Assembly: GCA_017590115.1 (NCBI GenBank)
Contig: JAGGNK010008781.1
Coordinates: forward strand, 2,546,861 to 2,610,860
Direction: 5' to 3'
Source: Montifringilla adamsi
Lineage: Eukaryota; Chordata; Aves; Passeriformes; Passeridae
Length of the DNA stretch: 64,000 nt
Part shown: positions 1,109-31,440 of the stretch, one piece after another
Numbering within the stretch: the first letter of the stretch is position 1
How the letters are laid out: each line of letters begins with the position of its first letter
Notes under the pieces: generated by a model
The model's input: the letters and a program-made list of their open reading frames with translations, nothing else
Databases searched by the model: none
What the model was told of the DNA's origin: nothing
Program-made: the position numbers and the translations under genes

Positions 1109-3926
1109 TCACTGCAGCATCCCCGTCCTCACCTGGAAGGCCAGCCCATCCCCACGCGTGGCTTGCTGCAGGGGACACACAGCACTCACAGCACGCCCTG
1201 CTCTGGGCTGCAGCACCACCCCGGGGGCCCTGGCAGTGCTGCCAGGGCTCAGCTTGTCACCAGGGTGGAAACACAACCCCTCTGGCTGCAGCAGCTCCCT
1301 GGCTGTGCCCAGCCACCCCGTGCAGCTCATGCTGGTGGCCAGTTCCCACTACCTTGTTAATCTCCTTGTGTCTCTCCTTGCTGACGATTTCTTCCAGGAC
1401 TTCCCCGTCCCCTTTAATGAGCCTGCAAGACAAGCACAGGCCCAGGAGCCATGAGGGTACTGGCCAGTTCCTGCAGCTGCAAAGGTGCTGACCCCCACCC
1501 CGAGGGCTCCTGCTCTGCCCCAGCTCCCCCAGACCCAGGAGCAGGTGCTGGGCTGATGCTCCTCCAGGCAAGGCCAGCGCTGACCCGCCCCTGACATTGT
1601 ATTTTGTGACTCTGTTTTTGTGTCAAGCTTAAACAGCACAGCAGGCTTTGCCATTGCTCCCGTGGGATTAATGTCACCACACTGCAGCAAGGCAGGAGTT
1701 CTCCCCTGAGAACTGAGGGCCAGCTGGCTCTGCCCCAGGCTGTGGGCACTGCCTGCTGTGTGCAGTCACACTGGCACAGCAAAACTCCTGGTGAAAGCAT
1801 CCCCTGTCACCCTACAATCCACAGTGCCTCAACCTATGCAAAACCTCTTATTTTTCTCATAGAATTCAGGTGTGGTCCTGGCTGCCCCAGGAAACTGCAA
1901 AGCCATTCAGGAACAGGAGCCAGTTTGGGCCTGAAATGCAGCCAGGATGGGGAATATCTTGCTGAGCAAATTCCAAGCAGTGTTGGAGGCGGCTCACACC
2001 TCCAGACATGAACAGAAATTTAATTGTCTTCATTACGTGCCTTACAGGGAACCGACCTTTGTTCCACACCTCCCTGAGCCCTGCAGGCTGCCTTCTATTT
2101 TAAGACTGGACTTGTCATACCCAATTCTCTTCAGCATGACGTTTTCTGCTTGCTGAGAAGATGCAGTTTATTAAAAACTGGGTCATTTCTATTTGGCAGC
2201 TAAATGAACTTGGGTTTGATCACTGCCTGTAACCCACAGGGCACATGTTCTTCACTCCCACCTGGGTGCTTCCAGGGCCCAGGGCTTTGGAGCTGAAAGG
2301 TAAGTGGATGCAGCAATGGGATACTGGGACAGCCCAGAGTCCCTTGTGTGGAGCCCCAGCACAATTCAATGATTTGGTGTCATTGTGTCACTTTGTGGGT
2401 AAGTCACACCAGGCCTGATGAGGGGGAGCTGTGAGGGGTTGGCTCAAGCCTTTGGTGGTGCTGCAGTGCCATGGACAGGCATCCTCCAGGCCCCCAGCCC
2501 GCTCAGCACGGATGGGAATGGAGAAGCCATCTCCCTCTTGCCCAGGGTCATACCTGGTTCTCCCCGTTTCAGGATCCACCACTCTCCTTATGACGCTCTG
2601 CCTCGCGTCCCACTCCTCCTTTGTCATTGGCTTCATGGCCTGGATCCGGGATTTCTGTTCATCTGTCAGAACTGGAGTGCAGTGCTCAGTCAGAGCTGTG
2701 CTCCAGGAGAGGGGCACAGCACCAGGGTTCAGCCCACAGACAACACTCCACACCCCATTCCTGGCAGTGCTCAGGGTGTGGTGACAAACCTTGCAAAGAA
2801 AGGGACACTTCACATCCCAAAGCCAGGACCAGCTTTGCCAGGATTTACTGCTGACTGTGTCCTTCCATTTGGCCTCTTTGTTCCCCACTCACATCTATAA
2901 ACCACATCCCAACACTTCACAAAGCAATCTCTGAGTGTGGCTCAAAGCCATACAGAGGAGGGAGGAGAGCTTGGGGCTCCTCCCTGTTCCCAGCCCTGCT
3001 TCCCTCAGACACCCCAGATGGAAAGGGACAGCAGAGACTCCAGCAGGAGGGAAAGAGCCTCCTTACCTGGCCCAGTGTCCACCACTGACTCCTTCTGCCA
3101 CTGCTCCAGCGAGGGCCCGGGCACGTCTTCTCCCTTGGCTTTCTCCTCCTTAGCCCTCTCCTTTGCCTTCTTCTTTGATTTCTTCTTTATTTTTTTTTTC
3201 TTCTTCTTCCTCTTCTTTTTGTCTTTTTGTTTCACTCGCTTTTTTTTGCTGTCTTGATTCTTCTTCACTTTGGAGTCGCTGTCACTGGAGTCATCAGAAG
3301 AGGAGCTGGAGGAAGAGGAAGATGAGGAAGAGCTGGTGGACGAAGACGTCCCAGAGGAAGAGGTACTGGCCTTCCTCTTCTTTTTGTCCTTTCCTTCCTT
3401 TTTCTTTTCTGCAATACACAAGAAGAGGGTGAGTGGAGCAGCCAGGCCCTGCAGCAGCAGAGATGTTGGTTTTTATCCCCCTCCCAGCCTGGTTTCTTTC
3501 CTGCCTGGAATTCCCCTCTGTGCCCACGTTCAACCCAGGATGCTCTGTGGTACCAGGGCAGCTCATGGAGGGGCTGAGAGCTCTGCACTTGTCAGAACGA
3601 GACCGAAATGAGCACAAAGTGCAGGACAAGGTGACAGACACCAACTAAAAACAGGGACCCTCTCCTTCCCCTGAGCCCCCTCTGTGCTCCTGCCCCAGGG
3701 ACGTGGTGACACCAAAGGCTCAGGGGCCTTCCCCACCTTCCCTGGCTGCTGCCAAGCTCGAGGTGTGTCCGTGAGAGCCAGAGATCCTCTTCCTCAGTGG
3801 AGAGCTGCTGCCCTGCTGCGAGTCCTTGCTGCTCTTCCTCCTTTTCTTCTCCTTCCTCTCCTGCCTGCTCCGAGAGTCGCTTTTGCTCCTGCTCCGCGAC
3901 CGCTTCCGAGAGCGGCTGCGGGCCAT
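1109..3926 (-). CDS. ARL6IP4: ARL6IP4 (SR-25), ADP-ribosylation-factor-like 6-interacting protein 4, complete coding region
   Basis: A basic, serine-rich nuclear-speckle protein linked to splicing regulation. The coding exons on the complement are 3737-3926, 3067-3408, 2554-2671, 1353-1422 and 1109-1165; all have GT-AG borders, join in phase and give 258 aa. The start at 3926 opens directly into an Arg-Ser region ([16 protein letters not shown]). A serine tract follows at about residues 78-112, then a lysine-rich block at about 115-150 and a PGPSLEQWQ motif. The strongly conserved C-terminal half starts with [20 protein letters not shown] near residue 179. A splice acceptor (pyrimidine run, then CAG) lies about 10 nt upstream of the ATG, so the first exon must be non-coding and further upstream. 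The human protein has alternative N-termini, so other starts are possible. The lysine and serine runs are of low complexity and could vary between individuals. Confidence 0.93.
3067..3408 (-). other. ARL6IP4: ARL6IP4 exon 2: serine and lysine homopolymer-rich segment
   Basis: This exon encodes a run of mostly serines followed by long lysine/arginine runs. On the plus strand it appears as a pyrimidine-rich tract near 3160-3250 and purine-rich tracts near 3290-3360. Such sequence is typical of disordered splicing factors and prone to length change. Confidence 0.8.
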
Positions 3927-10100: not shown

Positions 10101-12131
10101 TTAAACCAGTTATTTTTGTTTGGGGGCACCTCTGGGAGACAGAGTGTTTGCTTTGGTTCTCTGTGGTCAAGACAATATCTGTAAATATATTGTCTTATTA
10201 TTCCAGTAAATATCTGGAACCAAATGCCTGAGAGGAGTTGATGTTCCTTTTACAGGTAGCTTAAAAAGTGACTGAGGAGTTTTCTGTGGAAGTGTCAAGT
10301 GCAGCTGTGAGGTTTCAGCTCTTTCAGGCATTCTGACACCTCCAGGATCTGGCTTTTGTCCTGACAATAGAGGCATTGTCCAAAACAGAGACATTTGCTG
10401 GGAGTGAGACAAGGCCTGTCATGAAGGGATTACTGCTAAGTGTGGTGGAGACCGGCTAAGCTGCCCTTTCAGAGCAAACAGCTGATCCCGGCAACTCCTC
10501 CCGTTTATTTCCCCCTCACGAGATTCACTTGTAGCAATCCTCACTGAGAGAGTGAGCAGCCATTCCCTGGGACCAGGCAGCTCCTGTGTTCATTTCCTTG
10601 GGAACCAAGCAGACAAATCCAACAGATTTCTCAGCTTCCTTCCCCTCCCTGCCAGCCCCAAGGTCCCTGGGCACCAGCTCACAGGGCAGGGATCTGTAAC
10701 CCAGCACTGCCTAAAAAATCAGTATCAAGTGGGAAATTTGGACTGGAATTGCTGCTGGACAGGGAGAAGTGTGCCCTCCCCAGCCAGGGACAGCCACTGT
10801 CATCTGCTTCCTGCCAGCACTGAGTGACTCCTATTTGTTTGTGTAATTTTTAAGTCTCCTTTATGATGTTTATATTGATACAGCAAAGCCTGTATGCAGA
10901 TCTGAGCAGATCTGCAGAGAGCCCAGGTGATTAAGCAGTGCTTAGGACCAGGGTGATTATAAATTACAGCCAAAGTTAGGATCTTGTTTTTTAAATTCTA
11001 TATTACATTGCTCCTTGTGCTCCATTGATTCTGCCTGGGGAAATCCTGTGCTGTTCTACTCATAAATTCCCTGCTGTATGAATCATAATATCCAGTTAAT
11101 AAAGCTTTAATTACAGTATGATTTACAGCCACCATCACTCTGCCAAGAATTCCTAAAAGAACCTGTCTGTCCCCTTAGTGTCAGGTGACATTGGAGCTGG
11201 TGAGTGACTGATCCCTGTGCCTGGCCTGGGAAGAAGCAGAGATTCCGTGACAAAGGGTGAATTTCTGCAGGATCCCATCTCGGGGCTGCCTTTAAAAATG
11301 ACTGGCACAAGAAGGGACAAGGAAAGACAAAGCAGGGCACTGGCGGCCAGCGGAGTGCATGCAGGGCGGGAGCGGCTGGGAAGCGGTGACTGACAGGGTT
11401 TAATTGCAGGGTGTTGGCTGAATAAACTCCTCGCTGATGGGCGCCCGCGGGGAATTCTTCCCTCGGCACTCCGCCCGGCACCGGGCTGGATCGGGAGGAG
11501 CAGAGGGACCCCGGCAAGTCCCAAACTCCCTCGGGGAGCGACCTCGGCGTGTGGCGCTGCCGACAAGGGGCCGACAAAAAAGGAAGGAGAGAGACACTTT
11601 CCGAGGGCTGGAGTGACAGGACACAGGGAATGGCTTCACTCTGGCAGAGGGCAGGGGGAGATGGCATTTTGGGGAACAATTCCTCCCTGTGAGGAGGTGA
11701 GGCCCACAGGGTGCCCAGAGCAGCTGTGGCTGCCCCTGGATCCCCGGCAGTGCCCAAGGCCAGGCCGGAGGGGCTGGGAGCAGCCTGGGACAGAGGAAAT
11801 GTCCCTGCCGTGGCCAGGATGAGTTTTAATGTCCCCCCGAGCCCCCGGCGGCCGTGAGGGGCTCCCGCTCTCACCTCCCTCAGCACCTCCCGGAGCTGCT
11901 CCTCGCTCCGGCAGCCGCGCTCCCTCAGCGCCTGCAACACACGGGCCCGTCACCGCCGCGGCCGCCAGCGCGGCCCGCTCCCCCCGGCGCCGCCCGCCCC
12001 CGCGCTACCCGGCCGTGGTCCCGGCGGAGCTGCGGCCCGTCCCGGTACCGCACGTGCAGCCCGAACCGCCCCACGAAGATGTTGTCGGTGAAAAAGCAGG
12101 CGCACCCGCGGAACGTCGGGCCCGCGGACAT
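7144..12131 (-). CDS. OGFOD2: OGFOD2, 2-oxoglutarate and iron-dependent oxygenase domain-containing protein 2, complete
   Basis: A predicted Fe(II)/2-oxoglutarate dioxygenase; the substrate is not established. The seven coding exons on the complement are 12009-12131, 11875-11931, 9913-10023, 9340-9439, 8464-8588, 7969-8223 and 7144-7422. All have GT-AG borders, phases close, and the product is 349 aa, matching the human protein (350 aa). Exon 1 encodes an N-terminal segment with FRGCACFFTDNIFVGRFGLH. Exon 5 carries FEQSDMPKGRPNTMNNYG. The prolyl 4-hydroxylase-like core supplies the iron ligands H229 and D231 (SHYDNAEVTLN) and a distal histidine, H284 (RGGQIHGA). R294 (GQRWN) is placed to bind 2-oxoglutarate. 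The C-terminus contains a CPMC motif and ends DVCALG. All catalytic positions are intact. The gene is head to head with the GIN2-like gene and in the same orientation as ARL6IP4, as in other vertebrates. Confidence 0.96.
8757..8782. repeat. (TTG)n trinucleotide microsatellite
   Basis: About eight TTG units in OGFOD2 intron 4. No function is evident. Confidence 0.9.
10024..11874 (-). other. OGFOD2: OGFOD2 intron 2, largest intron of the gene
   Basis: Non-coding. A 277-codon open frame on the minus strand runs from exon 2 into this intron but loses all family similarity after the exon 2 donor. No repeat family is recognised here. Confidence 0.6.
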
Positions 12132-12480
12132 GTTTCCTGCCGGCGAACGCGTCTCGGTCCTGCCCTCAAAGGGCTCCGCTTCCGTCCGCGCGAGGGCGCG
12201 TCGGCAAATTCCCAACCGGGGCGAAAACGGAAAGCGGCGGAACTCGCCCGTTCTCCCCGGTTTTACGCTTGTTGTTTTTTGTCATCGCCGTGACGCCACC
12301 GCGGCCCGTTCCAGCAGCGCGGCCGTTGCCCCGCAGCCCTCAGGGCCGGGCCGGGCCGGGCCCGCTCGGAGCGGCAGCGGCCGCCGAAGGTTCTTTGCAG
12401 ACGGTCCCTGAGCTCCCCTGGCGGGGGCGCGCTGCGGGGACGCGCACGGGCGGCGGGGTCAGCGCGGGCCCGGCCCGGCC
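12132..12480. promoter_or_regulatory. Divergent CpG-island promoter shared by OGFOD2 (minus) and the GIN2-like gene (plus)
   Basis: Only 349 bp separate the two start codons, and the interval is dense in CpG, as are both flanking first exons (island about 11,830-12,720). No TATA box is visible. A TGACGCCAC element lies near 12,290. Shared bidirectional regulation is inferred from geometry. Confidence 0.75.
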
Positions 12481-15400
12481 ATGGACGCGGCGCTGCCGGA
12501 GGCCGAGCGGGAGGTGGTGGTGGCGGCCGAGCCCTGCGGCCACGACAGCAAGTTCGAGGACATCTACCGGCTGCTGGCCGAGGGGTACTTCCCGCCCAGC
12601 TTCTGCTCCATCAAGAGGAAGAACCTCAAGCGCTACGCCCAGAAGTTCGTCGTGGACGGTGGGGACCGGGGGGCAGCGCGGCGGTGTCGGGCTGCCCCGG
12701 GGCAGCCTGTGGGGGGAAGGTGGCCCCGCAGGCACGGGGGGATGTGGCGGAGGCTCGGCCTGGGGAGGGGATGCGGTTTGTGGGCAGCGCCGCCCGGCCG
12801 GCCCCGAGCCCCGGCACAGCCTCAGGGCCCGGAGCGGGGTCAGCCCGGGCCGGCCCGCTGCTCCACGGCTGCCCCCGGCTTTGGTGCACCGGAGGATTTC
12901 ACACGGTCCCGGGTGCAGAAAAGCTCGGTGGGCGTGCGGAGGGGTGATTCCAGTGTAGCAGCTCCTCCAGGAGCTCCGCAGGCAGCGCAGCCCCCGGAGC
13001 TGTGTCTCAGCTGGGTTTCCCGGTGTGGAGAATGACCCTGTTCGGAGGCGAGCAGCTGTGGGAGGGCGTTGTGGCAGACAAACCTCTGGCATCCGCAGGC
13101 GGCTGCCTCTACTACGTGGGACCCAAGAAGGAGGAGAAGCGAGAGGTGATCGTGGATCCCGAGCGGAGGCGCCAGGTCTTCCTGGAAAGCCATTTCACCG
13201 AAATCGGGAACCACCTGGGCCAGAAAAAGACCGTGCACCGCATCCAGAGCCGGTACTACTGGCTGGGCATCGTGAAGGATGTTGTGGACTGGGTAAGTGG
13301 AGAGCAGTGACCGTGTCCGTGACACCGGTGCTGGCAGCAGTCCCGAGGCAGAAGCCACAGGAGCGCTGGTGCAGGGATGATGTCATTCCCTGTGCATGTG
13401 CTGGGAAGCCACACACCGAGCTACTCTGCAGGTGAATCTTGGAACGTCCCGAGGCAGCTGGGTAGGCTGGACGTCTTCCCCTGAGTGTCAGGAAGTCTCC
13501 TCAGCCTCCTCGTGCAGGGCAGTTTTGGTCAGCATGGCAGTGTGGGATTGTTTCAGACAAGTTGCTGAGCCTAGCTTTGGGCAGTTTGGATTCTTTCCAG
13601 AGCTGCCCAATTGCCCAAACTATGGCAAGAGGAGTATCTCGGTGTCTGCTGAGCTGCTTTGCCTCGCCTGTTTCATTGCTGGCAGTTCCCTGCAGCAGGA
13701 CTCTGCAGCACTGTGGTTTGAGGAGTGTGCTTGTGTTGCATGGTCTGAGCAACTCCAGCATCCCAGGGCTGAGGATTTCTCTGACCAGCAATAGGAGGTC
13801 AAAATACAATAAAAATTTGCCAGGAAATTGGGTGAGAAATAGCTTAGCTGTAGGCCACGTTGAGAAATTTGCTTATTGTGTCAGAGAAAGCTGTCAGGTG
13901 AGCCTTGTGAAAGGTGAGATGCGTCAGCCTGTTGTGTTTCGCCCTTTCTTTCCTGCACCACCTTATTTTAGTGGGAGAAAGGAAAGTGCTCGGCCCTGCT
14001 GTGTGTCTCACGGTGCAGTCTGAGCCTGACAGGATCCATCAGCACATTCCCAAGTCCTTTGATCCCTCTTTTTCCCTCTGCAGATCAAGATGTGTGAAAC
14101 GTGCCAGAACGCGGAGCACAACAAGAGCGCGATGCGGAAAGCCAGGCCCGTCAGGGTGGAATCCCCCTGGGAGGTGCTGGGATTAGACATCCAGGGTGAG
14201 TGAGTGTCTCAAGTCAGGGTGGAATCCCCCTGGGAGGTGCTGGGATTAGACATCCAGGGTGAGTGAGTGTCTCAAGTGGCTCTCGGGGCTCCTCCCCTCA
14301 GCCCGGAGCGTGGCAGACCTGCTGCCACACGCACCGAGGGAAAGCCGCCGCTGCCTCTGAGGAGGTGCCAAGGAGGCCACAGCAGCCGCCCAGGCTGCAA
14401 CCTGATCCCTGGGCTTGGCTGGGCTCCCTCTGCACACACAGTGAGAGCTGTGGGCGGGCCCTCTTCCCCAGAGCTGAAACTCCCATGATGTATTTTTGCT
14501 GACCAAGGTGACCGATAAATGTTCTGGCTGAAAGACATTGCAGAAGAGAGTCGTGGTCACTTCTGCAGCGACTGGGTTTTTCACTTTGCCCACTTGGGGG
14601 ATATGAGGGCATCACATTGATTTTTTTTGATGGCTGTTTACACAGGGCCTTTTCCTGAGACAAGCCAGAGCAACACACACGTCCTGCTTGTGACTGACTA
14701 CTTCACCAAGTGGGTGGAGGCTGCTCCTCTGCAGAAGAAAGATCCCTTCTTCGTGGCTAAAGCCCTGGCTACTGTTTTTTACAGGTGGGCTCCTCTGCTG
14801 TTGGTTACATTGCACCCCTGCAGTGCATGGGGAGCACTGGGGTGTGTTGCAGAAATACCTGGTGCCCTCAGGATGTTTTCCTATGAGAGCAGGAACTCTC
14901 CCTTCTGCAGGAGAGACCATGCAGTGCCTCTCAGTTGCTCTTTACAAAGTCCTTGGGAAGAGCCTGTTACCCTGTTACGGGCTGAGAAGAAAGAGGCAGA
15001 AATGTTTCTCTGAGTAGCCCGAGGCCAGGGGAGCTGTGTCCCAGTTCTCTGCAGAAGCTTTAAAGCCATTCCCAGATTTCTCCTAGAAAGTGTTCGTGTC
15101 ACCATGTGACATTGTCCTTGTGGAAAACAGCGTGGGGCCAGTGGAGATTTGAATTCAGAGCAAGAAGCTGCTCTCATTTCTGCTGCTGCCTCATCATTCA
15201 AAAGCAAACAGGCGTGGCTGGTTTGGAGCAGAGGGACCAGCAGACCTCTCTGTGCTCTTGGGGAGGTCACAGCAGCCTCATCTGGAGGGTCCTGTCCCCT
15301 TCCTATCCCATTTGCACCCATAAAGATGGAATTCCTTGGGCTCTGCCTCAGCTGATGCAGTAAAACCAGTTGTGTGTCCTCTTCTTGCCCAGGTTTGGCG

Positions 15401-18150
15401 CCTCCAAGAACATTTACACCAGTCAGAGCTGGGACTTCTGCGAGGAGGTAGGTCTGGTGTGGGGTGGTTCAGGGGGAAGCAATGTGACCTTCAGCAGGTT
15501 TTTTGGGCAGTGTGACCTTCAGCAGGCAGCAGGTCCTGAAGGCAGAGTTGTGATGTGCTGTGTAGGGGGGGCGAGGCGCTGATGCTGCCGTATCCCTGCC
15601 CCAGTCCTGTTGAGAGTAGGAGCTGATTTGCCAGTGCTTTCACCTTGGCAGAGATTTAAGGTTGTGGATCAGTGGTGCAAGTCCTCTCTGCTTAGAAGGA
15701 ATGACCATGTGCACAAAATTCCAGCCCTACCCCGGGATTAACCCAGCTCCTCAGCACTGTGGAGAGCTTCAAACACAGGAGCAGTCGTTGCAAAACATTT
15801 TCTCAAGCTCTAATTTTTCTGGGGAGCATTTTGTGCTGCACATCTGCTGGCACAGGGGGGACAGTGGCTGTCCTGGCACAGGGGGACAGTGCCCTGGAGG
15901 CTGCTGTAGGGCTGACACGCCGTGGTCTCTGTGCTCTCCCAGGTCAGCCGGCACCTGTGTGAGCGCTGGAACATCTCACAGCTCCTCACACCCACAGACC
16001 CCACAGACCCTCCCAGCCCTGGTGACCACAGTGCTGAGGTGCTCAGGGCCTCCATCTGCAGCATGGTGAACGAGAAGCCCAGCGAGTGGGACGCATACCT
16101 GGACCCCGTTCTCTTCGAGTTCCGCACTTCGGTCAACTCCGCCACCAAGTACAGCCCCTTCTTCCTCATGTTCAACAGATACGTGTGCCTGTCCTCAGAG
16201 GTAACTGCCCGGCCCAGGGGAGCCTTGCATGAGCTTTGTCCCTACCGTGGTTGCAGAGTAACACCCGAATCTGTGCCTTGCAGGTGGATTTTGTCAAGGA
16301 CTCTAAAGAGCAGGGGGCTGGCTCCGGTAAGGCCGACGGCCTCCCGCCGTTCACAGCCACGGTGCAGGAGCAGCAGAACGTGGTGAAGGAGATTGTAAGT
16401 CTTGTGGTGCCTTGAAATCATTTTGCAGGAGAGGTGGCACCTCAGTGTGTGCCAAGGGCACCAGGAGCAGAGCTGGGCCAGCACCACAGGGGAGGTGCTG
16501 GTGGTGCTGCTCAGAGGTGGGTGATGATATACGAGGGACTGACTTGCCCCATCAGGTTAATGAGAGCTGTGTCCCAGCCTGCCCAGCTCCCTGCCTTGTA
16601 ATCTGCATCCCAGATCAGCCAAAGGAGTCCCTCCTTAGGCAGGACAAGAAGCCTTCAGGGAGATGCTGTGTAACTGCAAAAGGTTTAAAGTAGCCCTGCT
16701 CCAAAACGTGAGGAGGTTTGGGCTGCCATGAGGAGTAGTGGCCCAGTGGGCAGGGATATGGGCTTGGAGAGCAAAGTCAGCACGCAGCTCCTGACTGTCT
16801 CTGACGTGCTGGGTGACCTTGGCAGCTCATTTTGTCTCTCTAGTCTTTGGTTCCCTCACTTGAAAAATGACCTCAGTGTCCCCTGTGAAGTGCTTGGTGA
16901 GCTGTGTGCCAAAAAACCACAGACAAGGCTCAAGTGCTTTGTTTGCTCAGTCATGTCTTACACTCAGTCAGGGCTGTGTGGTTCTCTCTGATCTCACCTG
17001 GACTGTGGTTGTTCTTGCCAGGGAACAACAGGAGGAATATGGGACAGGAGGGAGGAGGGCCTGGGAACTGGATATGTAGGATCTGATCCCTTTGGCAGCT
17101 CAGGTTCACTAGCTCAGCTCCTCTTTTGTGAAATGGAGCTGCACATCCTGGCACAGGGCAGTGAGGGCTCTGTCCTGTCCCCAAGGGAGCTTTGGCTGTG
17201 GGATCACCGGCTCTCTCCTGCATGCAGGCAGGGATTGGGGCTGTAATTAACGGGAGGTGGTAAAGCTTCCCTGGGCTTTGTGGCACTCCAGCCTAGATCC
17301 CCTTCTGCCCTCTGCTGACTGACAGCTCTGAGTACGGCCGCGGAATTGCAGTTTCACATTGCGAGGGCTCCTGCTGGTGTGGGGTGGTGAGAACAAGGCT
17401 GGGACGTCCCTGCTGAGTCCCTCCCTTGCCCCAGGTGCATCCAGCTTGACGCTGCCAGCTCTCACTCACTCTCAGCCTCTCTTACGAGGAGAGACCGTGG
17501 GAGCTGGGCCTGCTCAGTCTGCAGAAGACTGAGAGGGGATCTCATCAAACATGGAAATATCTCTGAGGGGTGTCAGATGATTGTGCCAGGCTCTTCTCAG
17601 TGGTGCCCAGTGACAGGATGAAGAGGAATGGCCATAAACTAAACCACAAGAAGTTCCACTTCAACATGAGGAAGACCTTCTTTCCATTAAGTGTAGCAGA
17701 GCACTGGAACTGCCCAGGGAGGCCATGGATTCTCCCTCTGTGGAGACATTCCAAACCCACCTGGACATGTTCCTGTGTCACCTGCTCCAGGTGACCCTGC
17801 CTGGACATGGGGTTAGCCTGGATGATCTCCAGAGCTAAGGATTCCATCCCTAAGGATTCTGTGATTCACTGGGCTTGTGTCAGAGCTGAGCTGATTGCTG
17901 AGTGACACCTGGAAGCCCAGCCCCTCCATTCTCCTGGCAGGTGATCTCCAACATGACCATGGCCTGCAAGCACGATCGCAAGGGCGTGAAAAGGAAAACG
18001 CAGGGGCTGCCCTCTCTGGCCTTCAAGGTGGAAGACAACGTGTTTGGGGGCAGCCCTGCCAGCTCCCTGAAGAAGGGCCAGTTTATGTCGTTCCAGATCA
18101 AGACGATGCTGCCCCCCGAGCAGAGCATGTCCGGGAAGAAACCCAGTTAA
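12481..18150 (+). CDS. GIN2: GIN2-like domesticated Gypsy/GIN-transposon integrase, complete
   Basis: Eight coding exons (12481-12658, 13099-13292, 14084-14195, 14646-14784, 15393-15447, 15943-16200, 16284-16394, 17941-18150) with GT-AG borders and consistent phases give 418 aa. An N-terminal segment (KRKNLKRYAQKFVVDGGCLYY) leads into an integrase HHCC zinc-binding domain, H91-X6-H98-X29-C128-X2-C131. The RNase-H-like integrase core follows: D159 (VLGLDIQGPF), then LLVTDYFTKWVEA, then FGASKNIYTSQSWDF, where the second catalytic Asp is Ser218, and finally E258 (GDHSAEVLRAS). A C-terminal FKVEDNVF motif recalls the integrase C-terminal domain. There is no protease, reverse transcriptase, gag or LTR. 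Marin (2010) described GIN1 and a paralogue, GIN2, as vertebrate genes derived from GIN DNA transposons with Gypsy-type integrases. GIN1 is the main alternative, but its locus lies elsewhere in vertebrates, so I prefer GIN2. KRBA2- or SCAND3-type genes carry extra domains not seen here. Its molecular role is unknown. Confidence 0.88.
12659..14083 (+). other. GIN2: GIN2-like gene introns 1 and 2 (with exon 2 between them)
   Basis: Non-coding apart from exon 2 at 13099-13292. The first half is GC-rich island sequence. No repeat family is recognised. Confidence 0.6.
14151..14276 (+). repeat. Exact tandem duplication of a 63-bp unit across the GIN2 exon 3 splice donor
   Basis: Positions 14151-14213 and 14214-14276 are identical base for base. 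The unit covers the last 45 nt of exon 3, the donor GTGAGT and the start of intron 3. Continuing past the first donor meets an in-frame TGA within a few codons, so only the first copy's donor gives the conserved protein. Confidence 0.95.
17490..17867 (+). mobile_element. CR1 LINE 3' fragment, plus orientation
   Basis: Recognised by the ordered CR1 3' landmarks: GGGAGCTGGGCCTGCTCAGT, then AAGAGGAATGGCC, then CACTGGAACTGCCCAGGGAG, ending in the ATTCTGTGATTC-type 3' terminus. It lies in the last intron of the GIN2-like gene, is 5'-truncated and diverged, and has no ORF2 coding capacity. Confidence 0.9.
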
Positions 18151-18690
18151 CCCTGGGCGTGCCGGGGTCCTGCGGCACCGGGGACAGCATGGGCTGTCCC
18201 CAGGGTTTGTGGCCCGGCTGCGTGGCAGTGCAGGGTGCAGACGTGCCTGCTCTGTCCTGGGAGAAAGGAAGGGAAAGGTTCAGACAAGGGGGTCTGTTCA
18301 GTCCCTTCCTGGTCTGGGTTTGCCCTTGGATCAGACCGAAGGAGGTGGCACCATCCTCGTTTAGGTTTGGCAGGGAGAGACTCGGTCCTGCCAAAAAGCT
18401 GCACCTTGACTGTGGCTTGGAAGTTGCCCTTTGGGAGTGTTTGGGTGCAGACCAAAGCCCGGGAGTGATCTGGGTGCAGGTGGAGGAGAAGCAGAAACCA
18501 GACCCAGCCACGGACAATGTTTCCTGCAGCTTAAAAGCATCCCTGCTGAGAGCCTGAACCAGGAATAGTCACTCCAGCTCTGACTGTGTTCCTGGTGGAT
18601 GTGGGAAGGGCTTGAAGTGAGAGATTTTTTTGTTTTTTAATGTTTTGTTTTAAACACTTACTAGCAGAAATAAAACCAACAACAGAATGT
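18151..18690 (+). other. GIN2: GIN2-like gene 3' UTR
   Basis: Non-coding sequence from the stop codon to just after the AATAAA at 18669-18674. The open frames here are chance. Confidence 0.6.
18669..18674 (+). promoter_or_regulatory. GIN2: Polyadenylation signal AATAAA for the GIN2-like gene
   Basis: Canonical hexamer 519 nt after the stop, followed by a T/G-rich stretch (TGTGGTATTTTTGGTTTTGC). It supports a normal polyadenylated transcript. Confidence 0.75.
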
Positions 18691-19025
18691 GGTATTTTTG
18701 GTTTTGCTTATCCAGGCAGATAAAAATTAATTTGTCTTTTGTAATGTCACCATTCTGTTCTCTCCAGAAATGGTGCAAACTCCAGGAATTTTGACATCTG
18801 TGCCTGTGCTAGTGAGGGTCACAGGGGTGTTTTTAAGCCCAGCACTCCAAAAACACCTGGAAATTTTGGGATAATGACACTGCACCTCTGTCACCTGTAT
18901 AGCTCACCTGGATGCATGGGTGCTGTCCAGGGAGGAGCCAGAGCCCTTCCATTCCTTAAGAGTTGGAGTGGGAGGTGAAGGGGAAAATAATTTACAAGCT
19001 GGATTTCTTGAAAGTGGATTCCTCT

Positions 19026-19110
19026 GTGTTAGGGGTTAATTAAACCCTTGTCAAGCCCCTCTTAAGGAGTTAATTAAACCCATCGAGGCCCTTTTTAAGG
19101 ACTAACTTAA
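19026..19110. repeat. Imperfect ~36-bp direct duplication (TTAATTAAACCC ... TTAAGGA)
   Basis: Two adjacent copies begin TTAATTAAACCC and end in CTTAAGGAG or TTTAAGGAC, in the AT-rich spacer between the GIN2-like gene and the ABCB9 promoter. Confidence 0.7.
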
Positions 19111-19259
19111 AATATTATTTCGAGCTCTTTTCCCGGTCGCTTTTGAGCCAACTCCTCTGTTGTATTTTCCCTCTCTACTGCAGAAATGACATAGAACCAA
19201 TAAAAAATTTTAAAAATTTAAAAACATGTATATTTGAGGAGGATAAAAAACCTTCTAAG

Positions 19260-19730
19260 GCGGGGAAAATTCCAGGGCTGCCTTTGCCGCGTCGGGGCGG
19301 GGTTTACCGGGACAGGGCGGAGCGGGGGGACCGGGGACCCCCCCTCGAACCCCGAATTTTGCGGTCCCCGGTGCCGCTGCTCGGTCCGGCCGTGGGCGGG
19401 GCCGGGCGCGCGCCGCAGGAGGGGCGGGGCCGGGGGCGGGGCCACATCTGGGCCACGCCCAGCACCGACCTTGTTCCCGGGACGCGCCGCCGCCGCTCGC
19501 AGCGGGCTGATCCCGCCGATCCCCGACCCGCTGCCGGTAAGAGCCGTCCGGGCGGGCCGAGGCCGTGCTGCTCGGAAGCGGGAGCCGTGTGTGGGTGTCC
19601 GGCCGGGCTGTGGCGGGCACGGCCCTTCCCGGGTGTCTCCCCCTCCCCGCCTCGGGACATTCTCCTGCGCGGGAAAGGCGGGATGCGAGTGCGGACCTTG
19701 GGCGGCTCCATCTCGGGGGCTGGGGACGCT
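19260..19730. promoter_or_regulatory. ABCB9: ABCB9 CpG-island promoter with GC boxes and non-coding exon 1
   Basis: GC-rich island with at least three GGGGCGGGGC/GGGGGCGGGGC Sp1-type boxes between about 19394 and 19444. A splice donor at 19537 (CTGCCG/GTAAGA) would end a non-coding first exon, which splices to the acceptor at 20976 in front of the first coding exon. There is no TATA box close to the island. Exon 1 is inferred. Confidence 0.65.
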
Positions 19731-19760
19731 GCTGCGGGTGGTGGCGAGTGGCGGTGGCTG

Positions 19761-19785
19761 CCTCCTCCTCCTCCTCCTCCTCCTC
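19761..19785. repeat. (CTC)n trinucleotide repeat in ABCB9 intron 1
   Basis: Eight consecutive CTC-type units just downstream of the ABCB9 CpG island. Confidence 0.85.
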
Positions 19786-20987
19786 GGGCCGGATCCGCGC
19801 AGCTTTGCAGCGGATGGCAGCAGCGAGCACCCTGGGAAGCGTGTGCTGCTCCTCCCTGGCATCGCTGCTCCGCTTTGCGTCCATCCCTCCTTCCCCACCC
19901 GCCCCGTAAACCCCCGTGCTCCCCCAGATTGCAGCCTCTGCCCTGCTTTCCTCCGCTTTTTAGCTTTTTATCCCACTTGCCCGACCACCGAGCGGCTCTC
20001 CCCAAGGGCGCAGCTTGTCCAGCGCCAAGGGCTGCCCCTCGTCCCGGTGGTTTGGTTTTGGGGCGCTGCGGTCACACAGGCCGGAGTGTGGCCGCCACAT
20101 GGCACCCTTAGCGCGGTGCCTTCCGCACTGTGCACCGTCACCAGCGCTGAGCCAGCACAAATTCCAGGATCGGGCACCTCCCTCTTGCCAATGCGTGGCG
20201 GGCATGGCACTGGAGCAGGTCAGCGGCTCGCTGGGCTTAGGGCAAGTCGAGCTTTCCGCCCTTTGCCGTGTCCGTTCAGAGCCTGCCCCACCGGGCAGAC
20301 CGGGCGGCAGCAAGGGCAGCGTCCCGCCCGCCCCGGAGCCTTCCTCTCCCGCGGGACCCAGCCGTGGAATTCCAATCCCTTTTTAATTTCCTCTCGGGAT
20401 TTTTGTTGTGTCATTGAACTGCACGCTGGCTGCACAGCGGGTTCAGTGGGCTACCCCGAATTACTATCCAAGAGGGCTGGGGACGGTAAGGTGTGGCAAG
20501 CTGCGGTTCATGTGGTTTAATCTTATTTTGATGAGGGGGATCCCTTATAGAACTGAGCTGCTCCCTTGTCTGCTTTCCTACGGTTTTGACTGCTTGGTTT
20601 CAGCTTTGTCCTGGGAAGGGTGGGCAGGGACTCTGGGATCATGACTGTCCAAGTGTAACACCTCCACGGCTCCGTAGCGCAGGACACGTGGCTGCACGGA
20701 TGTGATGGCAGCACCACAGCCAGATTCCCATCGGGATGTGCAGATTTCTGCTTTGGGATTCAGGATGGGTGAAGGCATCCGGGAGGGAAGTTTGTCTTCC
20801 TTTGTGCTGCTCATTTAATGAAACACCATGTGCAGCAGGGGAGGGAGGTGCAGACAGTGATGTCTGCGGTCAGGATGGGTTGCTGGGGAGCTGGCACGGT
20901 TGTCCCCCCATCCTGCTTCCCTTTCCCTGCCTCCTCCCTGGGCTAAATAACCCCGTCCCCCTCTCTCACCCCGCAGCAGAGGCCGAC

Positions 20988-27000: not shown

Positions 27001-30000
27001 AGGCAGCCTGCCCGGCTCTCACCATCTGTTCAGATCACTGCAGGCTCTGGTGGGGTTTCCAGGCTGTGGTTTTGGTGTGGATTTAGTTTGGTTTGGGGTT
27101 TTTTTTCCCCCTCCTGCTGGGAGGGCCAGCTACAGTACAAACTGTTCTGCAGCTCTGGGTTTAACATTGCAAAACACCCTTTCCCAGGGCCGTCCATGTA
27201 TCCCTTCCATACCCAACAGAGGAGGGAGAGTTTTCTTTCCCTGTGTCTGATGCCTGCAGTCAACATCAGGCGATGGCAGACTGGGGGGTGCTTCAGCCAC
27301 CCCCCTTTTGAGTGGCAGTGGCTGATTTCCCCATCACTCAGGAGGGTCTCACTGCTGCCTCTTCCCTTGCAGTCCATCGGCTCCGTGTACAGCGGCCTCA
27401 TGCAGGGCGTGGGGGCTGCTGAGAAGGTTTTTGAGTTCATCGACCGCCAGCCCACCATGGTGCACGACGGCTCCCTGGCCCCGGATCACGTGGATGGGAA
27501 GGTGGAGTTCAGGAATGTCACCTTTTCCTACCGCACTCGCTCTGCCACCCAGGTCCTCCAGGTGAGCCCCGGGAGCACTCCCAGCACCCTGTGCTGCTGC
27601 TCCATCCTGGCCAGGAGCAAACCCCAGCCCGTGGGGAGTGGCAGCTGCTTGTCAGAGATGTGTAAAGGCAGGCTCAGTGCTTGCTGGGGAACAGATTAAA
27701 AGGAGCAGCGGGTGTTTAGGGCCGGCTTTCCTTACAAGGAATGAGATTTATTAATAAAACCCTTGTTCCCTGCTCAGGCATTAAACATGTCAGCGTGGTA
27801 CAGGGCTTTGTGCCAAGCTGCCTCAGACTGTTTCCGTGGGAGAGGGGCTGGGATCATGGGACAGGGGGAAGTAGCAAAGAGGTCAGTTTGCTTTTTGGAG
27901 CTCCTGCTACATCAGCAGGCAAATCTGAAGCAATTTGGAGGCTTTTTGCTTCCTCAGAGCCAGGAGAAATGGCTGATGTGGCACATCAAGGCAGAGGGGC
28001 GCTCTGGCCAGATTCTGGCTCCTTCTCTTGTGTAGTGCCCCAGGACGCTGAGAAAAGCCTGGCCCTGAGCACGCTCTCCCATCCATGTTGCAGGATGTGT
28101 CCTTCACCCTGCACCCTGGCAAAGTGACAGCGCTGGTGGGTCCTTCAGGGAGTGGGAAGAGCTCCTGTGTCAACATCCTGGAGAACTTCTACCCTCTGCA
28201 GGACGGGCAGGTGCTGCTGGATGGGCGTCCCATTAACATGTATGATCACAAGTACCTGCACTCCGTGGTACGAGCGACTGATACCTGTATTCTGGTTGTG
28301 ATTCCTGTGTTCTGCTTAGCCCACTTACCAGCTGCAGGGCTCTGAGGGGGATGCATGGCACTGCTGCACGTTGCTTTGGATTTGATCTGGCAGCTCCAGA
28401 AATGTCCAGAAAGCTGGAGGCTGGAAGTGGTCCAAGAAATGAATTTGGATAATTTGTGGGGGTGGAAGGGAAGGGGATGGAGGGTGGTTTCAAGGGGAAG
28501 GGGAAGCCTTCCAAAAACAGAACAAAAACATCTTTTGTTTGGTATTTTTTGGCCAACACAGTAGAAATATGTTTTTGGCTGTTGGATTAATTATCATCTA
28601 AATTGGGTTTGGAAAAAGAGTTTTGTATTCCTCCAGAAATTTCTACCTTAGGATCTTAGAGTAATTCTCAGCTAATTGGGAGTTAAACCTCTCAGGATCC
28701 TGGCAGCAGCTGGAGCACCAGAAGGGCTGGTGCTTTGCCTAGGAGAGGGGTCCGGGCCCCTCAGCTCTCATCTGTGTGTCAGCACAGATCAGCCTTCATC
28801 TCTGCAAGTAACTGCCTCCTTTGTTTGCCCCCAGAGCAAATGGCCTCAGCAGTCAGCAGGAAAACCTGAAAACAATTGATCAGAGACAGGCTGGAAAGCC
28901 AAAGTCACTGTGACTAATTTACATTCCCTGCCCGTACAGAGCAAAAATCAAAGGCCAGGCAAATCTTTCAGTTCAGAAAGCCTGGTGTGGTGTTAGGGGC
29001 ATGGGGAGAACTCAGTTAAATATGACTGTGTCTCCCTGGCTCTCTCATGCACAATTCTGAGTAATAGTTTGAAAGGTTTGATTTATTCCAATATCAAGGA
29101 TTTGATAAAGCGTCTGAACGTGACAGTGAACAGCCATGGCTGTAAGGCAGGACAGGGAGGCTGTTGCTAAGCAATTAAGGAATTGCAGCAGTTACTTCCC
29201 TAACTTGCTCATTTGGGATTAAAAGATGCAAGAGGGCTCATTCACATGGCCCAAGTGTGACTACTGGCCTTGAAAGGAAAATCAGCAAGGGCCTGGGAGA
29301 GGGTCTCTCCAGCCTGACTTATTCCAGCAACTGGTTTTCCATTCTGAGAAAAGCAAACATTGATGGGAATAACAGATCTGGAGCAAAACCACAGCAGGCT
29401 TTAGGAGGGGGAAGCCCATCCCAGATGCCAACGTGCCAGCATTGCTTTAGGTTTCTTTCCTGCAAAATGGCTTTCCAGCAGAAAATGCAAACTGCGTACC
29501 CTGACGTTGGCATCCTCACTGGAAGCTCACCTTGAGCACTTCTCTGTCTTGGTTAATGACATTTCTAAATCTTGATCTCGGTCCTTACTCAGCAGGAACA
29601 AATATCAATGGTCAGAGATATCACGCAGTGCATCTTCTGCTCCTGACCCCTGCTCTCCCTTTGCTTCCTGCAGATCTCCCTGGTGAGCCAGGAGCCCGTG
29701 CTGTTCGCCCGCTCCATTGCAGACAATATTTCCTATGGCTTGGCTTCAGCCTCCTTCGAGTCCGTGGTCCAGGCTGCCCAGAAGGCCAACGCCCACAACT
29801 TCATCACGGAGCTGCAGGACGGCTACCACACAGGTACGGCACTGCTGGGCCTGGCACTGCACGTCCTGGCACCTCCTGGTTTTCATTTTGACCCCTTCCT
29901 CTCTCCCTTGACCCAACAGAGGCTGGGGAAAAAGGAGCTCAGCTGTCAGGTGGGCAGAAGCAGAGAGTGGCGATTGCCAGGGCCTTGATCCGAGCCCCTC

Positions 30001-31440
30001 CCATCCTCATCCTGGACGAAGCCACGAGCGCGCTGGATGCAGAGAGCGAGCACGCGGTGAGTGGGGGGCCTGGCTGCCTGGGACAAAGAGGGCTTGGAGG
30101 ACAGACTGTAGCCTGTTTCCAGCCAGTGGACAAACCTATTCTTGATAGGGTGCTAGCAGAGGGTTGAGTAAAGCACTAATTCTGTAGCAGGAATTTGATT
30201 CCGATGCTCTTGTAGCCACCAGAAAATAATTCCATGCTCACAGCAGCCAATGCCTGACAAACCTGATGAAGTAGGGATCTTTGCTGATTTTTTTCAATGT
30301 GGAAGGTGTTAATTGTCATACAGAGAGTCTGTGCAGCCTTTTAGGACAGGAAGACCGTATAAAATGGTGCTGCAGCAAGGAGAGTAGGAGTGCCTGAGCT
30401 CAAATCCCAGCCAAGGCACCAAGGAAGCCGCATTTGCAGGAAAAACCTTGAGCATGCTGGGAACTGGTTTATCTGTCTGGAAGTTTGGCCTCCCTGATGC
30501 AATGACATGAAGGAAAGATTGTTCAAGGTTGGGATTTGAGGATGTGCCTCCAATCCCAGAGGACAAATCCTGCTGGGGCAGCACAAGTATCTGACCTTGG
30601 AGCAGTTTGCTGCCTCACAGGTCCTCAGTCACGTGTGTGGTACCTGGTGCCAGCCCAGGGTTGGTTTTGGCTACCCAGGGGTGTCAATGTGACCTGTGCC
30701 TGATGGCCACCTGCCTGCCTTTAGACATCAATGCTATTGTCTCTTGACTGGAAAAAACCTCTCTTGCCTTGCCTTGATACACTGAGGAAAGAATTCTGCT
30801 TTTCTGAGCAGCTGCAGTCACCAGGTATTCCTGCAGTCTCTGCCAGCACCACGTGGTCTCCAAATTTGGGGCCCAGCTGTAACAAGTCCCCAGCTTGCAG
30901 GATCAGACCTGTGCTCGTAGCTCACCTGGCTGGACTGAGATGGTCTTTGGGCTGCAGCTGGAAGCTGGGCTGGACATGTTTGTGCTGGTAGTGCTGCAGG
31001 GAGCAGAGCAGAACACATCTCCTGTCCAGAGGTTTCTGGACAGAGACCACAAAGCTGCTGCTCTCCCAGTGCCCGGGCACTAACGCCTTTTCTCCCCGCA
31101 GATTCAGCAGGCGATTTACGGCGACTTGCAGAACCACACGGTGCTTGTCATAGCTCACAGGCTGAGCACTGTGGAGAGGGCACACAACATCATTGTGCTG
31201 GACAAGGGCCGCGTGGTGCAGCAGGGCTCGCACAAGGAGCTGATGGAAGAAGGAGGCCTTTATTCCAAGCTGGTGCAGAGACAGATCCTGGGGCTGGAGG
31301 GGGGCGGCACGGACAGTGGCCAGCCTGCAGCCCGGGGGGATGCAGCCAAGGCGCCCGGAGGGCTGCAGGAGGAGTTCAGGATAGACCATTCCCTGCCGGC
31401 CGCGGCACAGGACGATTTCACCAACGCCGCGCCCAAGTGA
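21055..31440 (+). CDS. ABCB9: ABCB9 (TAP-like, TAPL), lysosomal peptide half-transporter, complete
   Basis: A homodimeric ABC half-transporter that moves peptides from cytosol into lysosomes. Eleven coding exons (21055-21667, 22003-22117, 22569-22699, 23736-23941, 24335-24532, 26097-26225, 27373-27561, 28094-28267, 29674-29833, 29920-30056, 31102-31440) join in phase to 796 aa; human ABCB9 has 766. The first coding exon encodes an N-terminal four-helix region like TMD0, the lysosome-targeting part. Exons from 22003 to about 27400 encode the core transmembrane domain ([36 protein letters not shown]). The nucleotide-binding domain has Walker [10 protein letters not shown] (543-551), Q-loop Q591, signature LSGGQ (647-651), Walker B ILILDE with D671 and E672, and H-loop H703. 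All catalytic residues are present. The start matches the family (MRAWKAV). The C-terminal tail after [10 protein letters not shown] is longer than in human and not conserved. Confidence 0.97.
24533..26096 (+). other. ABCB9: ABCB9 intron 6
   Basis: 1.56 kb of non-coding sequence with a short poly-C run near 24983. No exon or recognised repeat is seen. Confidence 0.6.
26242..26475 (-). mobile_element. CR1 LINE 3' fragment, minus orientation, in ABCB9 intron 7
   Basis: Reverse-complement CR1 3' sequence: GAATGGGTTGGGTTGGAAGG, then GACCTTAAAGACCATCTCATTCCAGCTCCCTG-type text (in part) and GGGCAGGGACACCTTCCACA. It starts only 16 bp past the exon 7 donor. Confidence 0.9.
28268..29673 (+). other. 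ABCB9: ABCB9 intron 9
   Basis: 1.4 kb of non-coding sequence without a recognised repeat family or RNA gene. It splits the nucleotide-binding domain between Walker A and the Q-loop. Confidence 0.6.
30057..31101 (+). other. ABCB9: ABCB9 intron 11
   Basis: About 1.0 kb of non-coding sequence between the Walker B and H-loop exons. No recognised repeat or alternative exon was found. Confidence 0.6.

Follow-up and report, generated by a model that had tools for sequence, protein, structure and literature searches.

What does a gene encoding an integrase-like protein do in a songbird genome? That question is raised by positions 12481-18150 of a 64,000-nucleotide stretch (‘the window’) of the Montifringilla adamsi genome (assembly GCA_017590115.1, contig JAGGNK010008781.1, positions 2,546,861 to 2,610,860). 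The answer favored here, at a probability of roughly 0.55, is that the gene is an orthologue of GIN2 and that it encodes a non-catalytic binding or scaffold protein. GIN2, that is, is an ancient domesticated transposase which has kept its zinc module, has lost the second catalytic aspartate of integrases, and appears to have lost a C-terminal module as well, a combination which points to binding or scaffolding ahead of integration. GIN1 and GIN2 reportedly were described by Marin in 2010 as descendants of GIN transposons.

Gene structure

Eight coding exons splice into one plus-strand frame of 1257 nt, stop included, which encodes 418 residues:

12481..12658, plus strand, GIN2 coding exon 1, start codon at 12481
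13099..13292, plus strand, GIN2 coding exon 2, carrying H91 (13191-13193) and H98 of the HHCC module
14084..14195, plus strand, GIN2 coding exon 3, carrying C128, C131 and D159 (14186-14188, the first triad position)
14646..14784, plus strand, GIN2 coding exon 4, core
15393..15447, plus strand, GIN2 coding exon 5, core, with S218 (15421-15423) at the position of the second catalytic D of integrases
15943..16200, plus strand, GIN2 coding exon 6, core
16284..16394, plus strand, GIN2 coding exon 7, part of the spliced frame
17941..18150, plus strand, GIN2 coding exon 8, C-terminal tail and stop, the tail being disordered in a predicted woodpecker model
18669..18674, plus strand, poly(A) signal motif AATAAA

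All seven introns are GT-AG, i.e., all 14 splice-site dinucleotides are present, with phases at the seven exon joins of 1, 0, 1, 2, 0, 0 and 0. The joined exons contain in frame 0 the terminal stop alone, versus 10 and 9 stops in the other two frames, and third-position GC is 0.83 versus a GC of 0.56 in the introns, so the reading frame exceeds what chance would supply. A preliminary description of this locus, made by a model from the letters alone, had proposed eight exons with correct splice sites and phases and a 418-residue product. That structure stands, with the qualification that the exon 3 donor is present twice. The C-terminal FKVEDNVF motif which it had noted lies at residues 377-384 of the translation, and the open frame (over all 418 codons) and the gene's own poly(A) signal likewise are as it had said. 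Within intron 7, a stretch at about 17440-17870 has the look of a CR1 element's 3' portion.

Orthology to GIN2

Among about 5.8 billion proteins searched, the spliced product has 198 matches, of which the best 120 were listed. Closest among those listed is a woodpecker protein, matching at 84% identity over its full length and representing a cluster of 75 sequences; the other listed relatives come from turtles, starling, lizards, snakes, crocodile, coelacanth, marsupials, frogs, sharks, rays and ray-finned fish. A tree of 38 rows, including 36 of the 120 listed relatives and rooted on a very long GIN1 branch, pairs the window gene with starling (100/100) inside birds (99/97), and its tetrapod part broadly matches species order. 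The base of the tree departs from that order, with ray-finned fish outside sharks plus lobe-finned vertebrates, and forks near the root are weak. From the tree placement we infer vertical inheritance. Identity to the partial GIN1 sequence from this genome is 23% in a joint alignment, well below that to woodpecker GIN2, and the gene almost certainly is the songbird orthologue of GIN2. Membership in this transposon-derived family, along with a protein search and a GIN1-containing tree as the means of checking it, was what the preliminary description had put forward, and both analyses agree with it.

PMC3424704 (2012) describes bird GIN2 as having eight coding exons, a location between OGFOD2 and ABCB9, a kept HHCC and a doubtful catalytic triad, and Chalopin et al. 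is cited as prior description of GIN2. Both the gene and where it lies, along with its chief characteristics, were already described in 2010-2012, and what the window holds is an orthologue that is unremarkable apart from a few details of its lineage. It shares with published GIN2 the full-length homology, the exon count, the place, the kept HHCC and the lost triad, but differs in its faster change (as seen with turtle outgroups), its duplicated exon 3 donor and its three missing tail residues. Added here to the published work are counts of second aspartate loss, a model of core and tail, an intron comparison with GIN1, the 63-bp duplication of the exon 3 donor, and the songbird rate.

GIN1, other copies and mobility

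GIN1 of the same genome lies on a separate contig (C121, loci L021/L022, G000:C121:118001-138000). It has the same domain order as GIN2, with HHCC columns invariant in the joint alignment and 27-35% identity in matched exons. Unlike GIN2, it keeps the second catalytic D, and it has also retained its C-terminal module, in which GPC is found; the first triad residue is E instead of D. Its exon joins, placed by eye, fall at GIN2-equivalent residues 60, 124/125 and 226/227 with phases 1, 0 and 0, and three intron positions and phases thus are common to the two genes, with GIN2 introns 3 and 4 having no GIN1 counterpart. PMC2836005 reports that GIN1, GIN2 and Ginger1-5_HM have three conserved introns.

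Ginger1 (GIN) DNA transposons are the published source of GIN1 and GIN2 (PMC2836005), and they share with GIN2 an H2C2 finger and a DDE-type core. The presence of integrase-type domains could suggest a still mobile Ginger1/GIN element, or a recent insertion. Mobile Ginger1 elements, going by published description, nonetheless possess terminal inverted repeats, a DDE triad, a GPY/F motif and an OTU/Ulp1 protease, none of which was seen in GIN2. Over 11000-20500, a search for terminal inverted repeats gave 17 weak pairs, none more than 85% complementary, and hence no sign of transposon ends; as regards such ends, the earlier statement that no transposon part lies nearby is upheld. For a C-terminal protease domain (OTU or Ulp1), Pfam gave three families up to E 1, with none of this kind in the protein. 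An H2C2 scan of the 1.03 Gb genome (150 of 239 candidates scored) gave 57 matches, the window gene and GIN1 included, and among the 20 of these 57 loci compared by tblastn the window gene alone matches at 96-100%, the next best reaching 35%. Many genomic copies, which the preliminary description had named as evidence against a domesticated gene, therefore do not appear among the loci compared, these being 20 of the 57. The vertical tree placement, the introns common to GIN1, and the conserved synteny published in PMC3424704 argue in the same direction, such that present or recent mobility is exceedingly improbable. Two profile searches aimed at Ginger1 transposases returned GIN2-type proteins among the best 120 of 229 and the best 120 of 419 matches. 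As a separate observation, the top H2C2 match of the genome is proviral, with long open reading frames (L023, G000:C390:5487001-5496000).

Domains and loss of the catalytic triad

The integrase HHCC zinc domain noted earlier is confirmed by a Pfam Integrase_H2C2 match of 1.6e-17, above the family cut-off, and by an HHCC kept in 119/119 relatives. For the integrase core likewise noted there is an rve match (4.8e-4; 20.8 bits, below the Pfam cut-off of 32.6) and an integrase-type model fold. Modelling was done on the woodpecker orthologue (P0001), using 55 of the 120 relatives listed, and predicts an integrase-type core followed by a disordered tail; the fold comparison covers model residues 144-308, with the tail outside its span.

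Position 218, that of the second catalytic aspartate, is D in 0/117 relatives with a residue there, and is S in this bird. The column aligned with the triad E is G253 in this GIN2, and the triad therefore is incomplete. Canonical catalysis, to judge from these residues, very probably has been lost.

Might cutting or joining of DNA instead be retained, using shifted acidic residues? PMC3424704 notes conserved D and E residues displaced from the triad, and leaves the question open. In the present alignments D179 is found in 111/111 rows, D222 in 88/111 and D254 in 93/120. D179, however, aligns with a foamy virus integrase aspartate which lies outside that enzyme's triad, and D222 is lost in 3 marsupial and 9 chondrichthyan rows examined. 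Given also the uniform absence of D at position 218, such retained activity is very unlikely.

A GPF string at residues 162-164 was considered as a GPY/F motif and rejected, as it sits just after D159, in the core. GP is found at this place (residues 162-163) in 117/121 rows, whereas GP[YFCL] C-terminal of residue 312 is found in 4/121. Because the GP string sits in the core and GP[YFCL] is rare past residue 312, the C-terminal (GPY/F) module appears to have been lost from GIN2. This GPF seems, from a figure legend, to be what PMC3424704 marks as a GPY/F motif.

A proposed role in binding or as a scaffold

Since the zinc module does not vary and the second aspartate is missing, GIN2 most likely serves in binding or as a scaffold. 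Argued from analogues, the scaffold role in itself is an even call. Such a protein would lack strand-transfer activity. Its HHCC module and dead RNase H-like core might bind nucleic acid or a chromatin partner and, like integrase domains, self-associate, and its basic, disordered tail could hold a nuclear signal or a partner motif. Transcription would begin in a CpG-rich promoter common with OGFOD2.

Two analogues may be mentioned. Imagin, of malacostracan crustaceans, is like GIN2 derived from Ginger1 and has likewise retained the zinc finger while losing the triad; it hence provides a precedent for a triad-less Ginger1 derivative, though the protein is mainly cytosolic. It differs also in its host, in its location within an MMUT intron, and in belonging to a clade that its authors find distinct from human GIN1. 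Zbtb11 has an HHCC domain with the same HX6HX29CX2C spacing (GIN2 residues 91, 98, 128 and 131) and supplies a precedent for this finger in a transcriptional repressor. Unlike GIN2, it is a BTB/zinc-finger transcription factor, with no integrase core described in the passages seen.

Several points weigh against a binding or scaffold role. The analogues are limited, since Imagin is cytosolic and a Zbtb11 mutant was still rescued following deletion of the whole N-terminus. Residue 159 is D in 85/119 relatives and D or E in 109/119, an acidity which may point to a degree of metal binding. At sites conserved at 80%, the changes of the songbird lineage taken up below number 14 versus 18.0 expected (p 0.12), so avoidance there is not clear. 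A literature search, with subscription journals mostly outside of it, found no study of GIN2 binding, localisation or loss of function beyond expression work, which is consistent with the earlier remark that the biological function is undescribed.

As to residue 159 in particular, the window, starling and woodpecker proteins all carry D; two galliform-like rows have A there, and the six frog rows have A, T or V. According to PMC3424704, birds and amphibians lack the first triad D. For expression, the same paper gives chicken ESTs (expressed sequence tags) and quantitative PCR in fish: GIN2 expression increases in zebrafish from the dome stage onward, and its highest level is in brain in zebrafish and in gonads in platyfish. 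The paper also reports that GIN2 is missing from placental mammals and monotremes.

Change in the songbird lineage

A duplication lies at the end of exon 3:

14150..14275, plus strand, perfect 63-bp tandem duplication spanning the exon 3 end and its splice donor

Exon 3 donors thus are found after 14195 and after 14258, with use of the second leading to a TGA after residue 163. The duplication may be recent, polymorphic or an assembly error.

Constraint was assessed at the protein level, both as changes along the window lineage versus woodpecker, given an outgroup, and as changes relative to conserved sites. The lineage ratio is 40:10 with P0002, which groups with turtles (p 2e-5), 33:13 with Pelodiscus (p 0.005) and 39:9 with Pelusios (p 2e-5), but is weaker with crocodile (28:16, p 0.10) or coelacanth (26:14, p 0.08). 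Starling versus woodpecker, with the same five outgroups in that order, gives 36:14, 30:17, 37:13, 29:15 and 26:15. In addition, the window protein has L252P where 108/111 relatives have L, starling also having P, and lacks three tail residues that starling retains.

From these observations it might be argued that GIN2 is weakening in this songbird, with transcripts led by the second donor into a premature stop and with constraint relaxed. The perfection of the duplicate donors would fit, as would the lineage excess, L252P, the lost tail residues, and a starling protein model without approximately 60 core residues. The frame nevertheless is open throughout, with every splice-site dinucleotide in place. 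The 40 lineage changes moreover avoid the most conserved sites, with 4 versus 12.1 expected at sites conserved at 90% (p 0.002) and 2 versus 8.4 at 95% (p 0.004), 9 of 121 rows outside of 375-470 residues having been dropped from the conservation alignment. Songbird GIN2 thus looks constrained, though faster-changing when viewed against turtle outgroups. Since starling has much of the faster change, and L252P as well, most of that change predates the duplication, if the latter is private to this bird. Adding that the duplication itself is possibly an assembly error, a weakening gene is unlikely.

Improbable to a greater degree is that the two donors give one gene alternative products, the full protein and a shorter one of 163 residues, the latter consisting of the N-terminal part and zinc module without the core, and that GIN2, alongside faster core and tail change, has been remodelled in the songbird lineage. 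If true, the HHCC module would here be naturally uncoupled from the integrase core. Duplicated donor and rate shift represent a natural variant.

The starling model just mentioned (P0004, Lamprotornis superbus) lacks residues equivalent to window exons 4-5, which may be an annotation gap or a real loss.

Neighbouring genes and promoter

Around GIN2 are found the following:

2391-2888, minus strand, SR-25 domain of a neighbour beyond the OGFOD2-like domain, 99.3 bits
7630..8277, minus strand, OGFOD2-like domain of a neighbour, open frame, 22.7 bits, below the Pfam cut-off of 31
12132..12480, no strand assigned, CpG-rich stretch between the OGFOD2 and GIN2 start codons, 349 bp, GC 0.74, CpG observed/expected 1.16
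28052-28342 and 29892-30164, plus strand, two exons of the neighbour ABCB9 with nucleotide-binding-domain matches

The claimed location between OGFOD2, upstream, and ABCB9, downstream, is recovered, with the OGFOD2 domain match being sub-cut-off. For exon 28052-28342 the best match among solved structures is ABCB9 (8.3e-30). Ten plus-strand frames first tried for ABCB9 gave no Pfam match, and the ABC exons were then located by motif. The SR-25 neighbour corresponds to the gene ARL6IP4. With the minus-strand OGFOD2 start codon placed by eye, the CpG-rich stretch is a possible promoter common to OGFOD2 and GIN2.

In the fish Umbra pygmaea, a 1282-residue predicted protein (P0121) joins GIN2 to an ABCB9-type ABC transporter. 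This probably is a run-through gene prediction, and as a fusion it fits the order GIN2-ABC transporter in that fish too.
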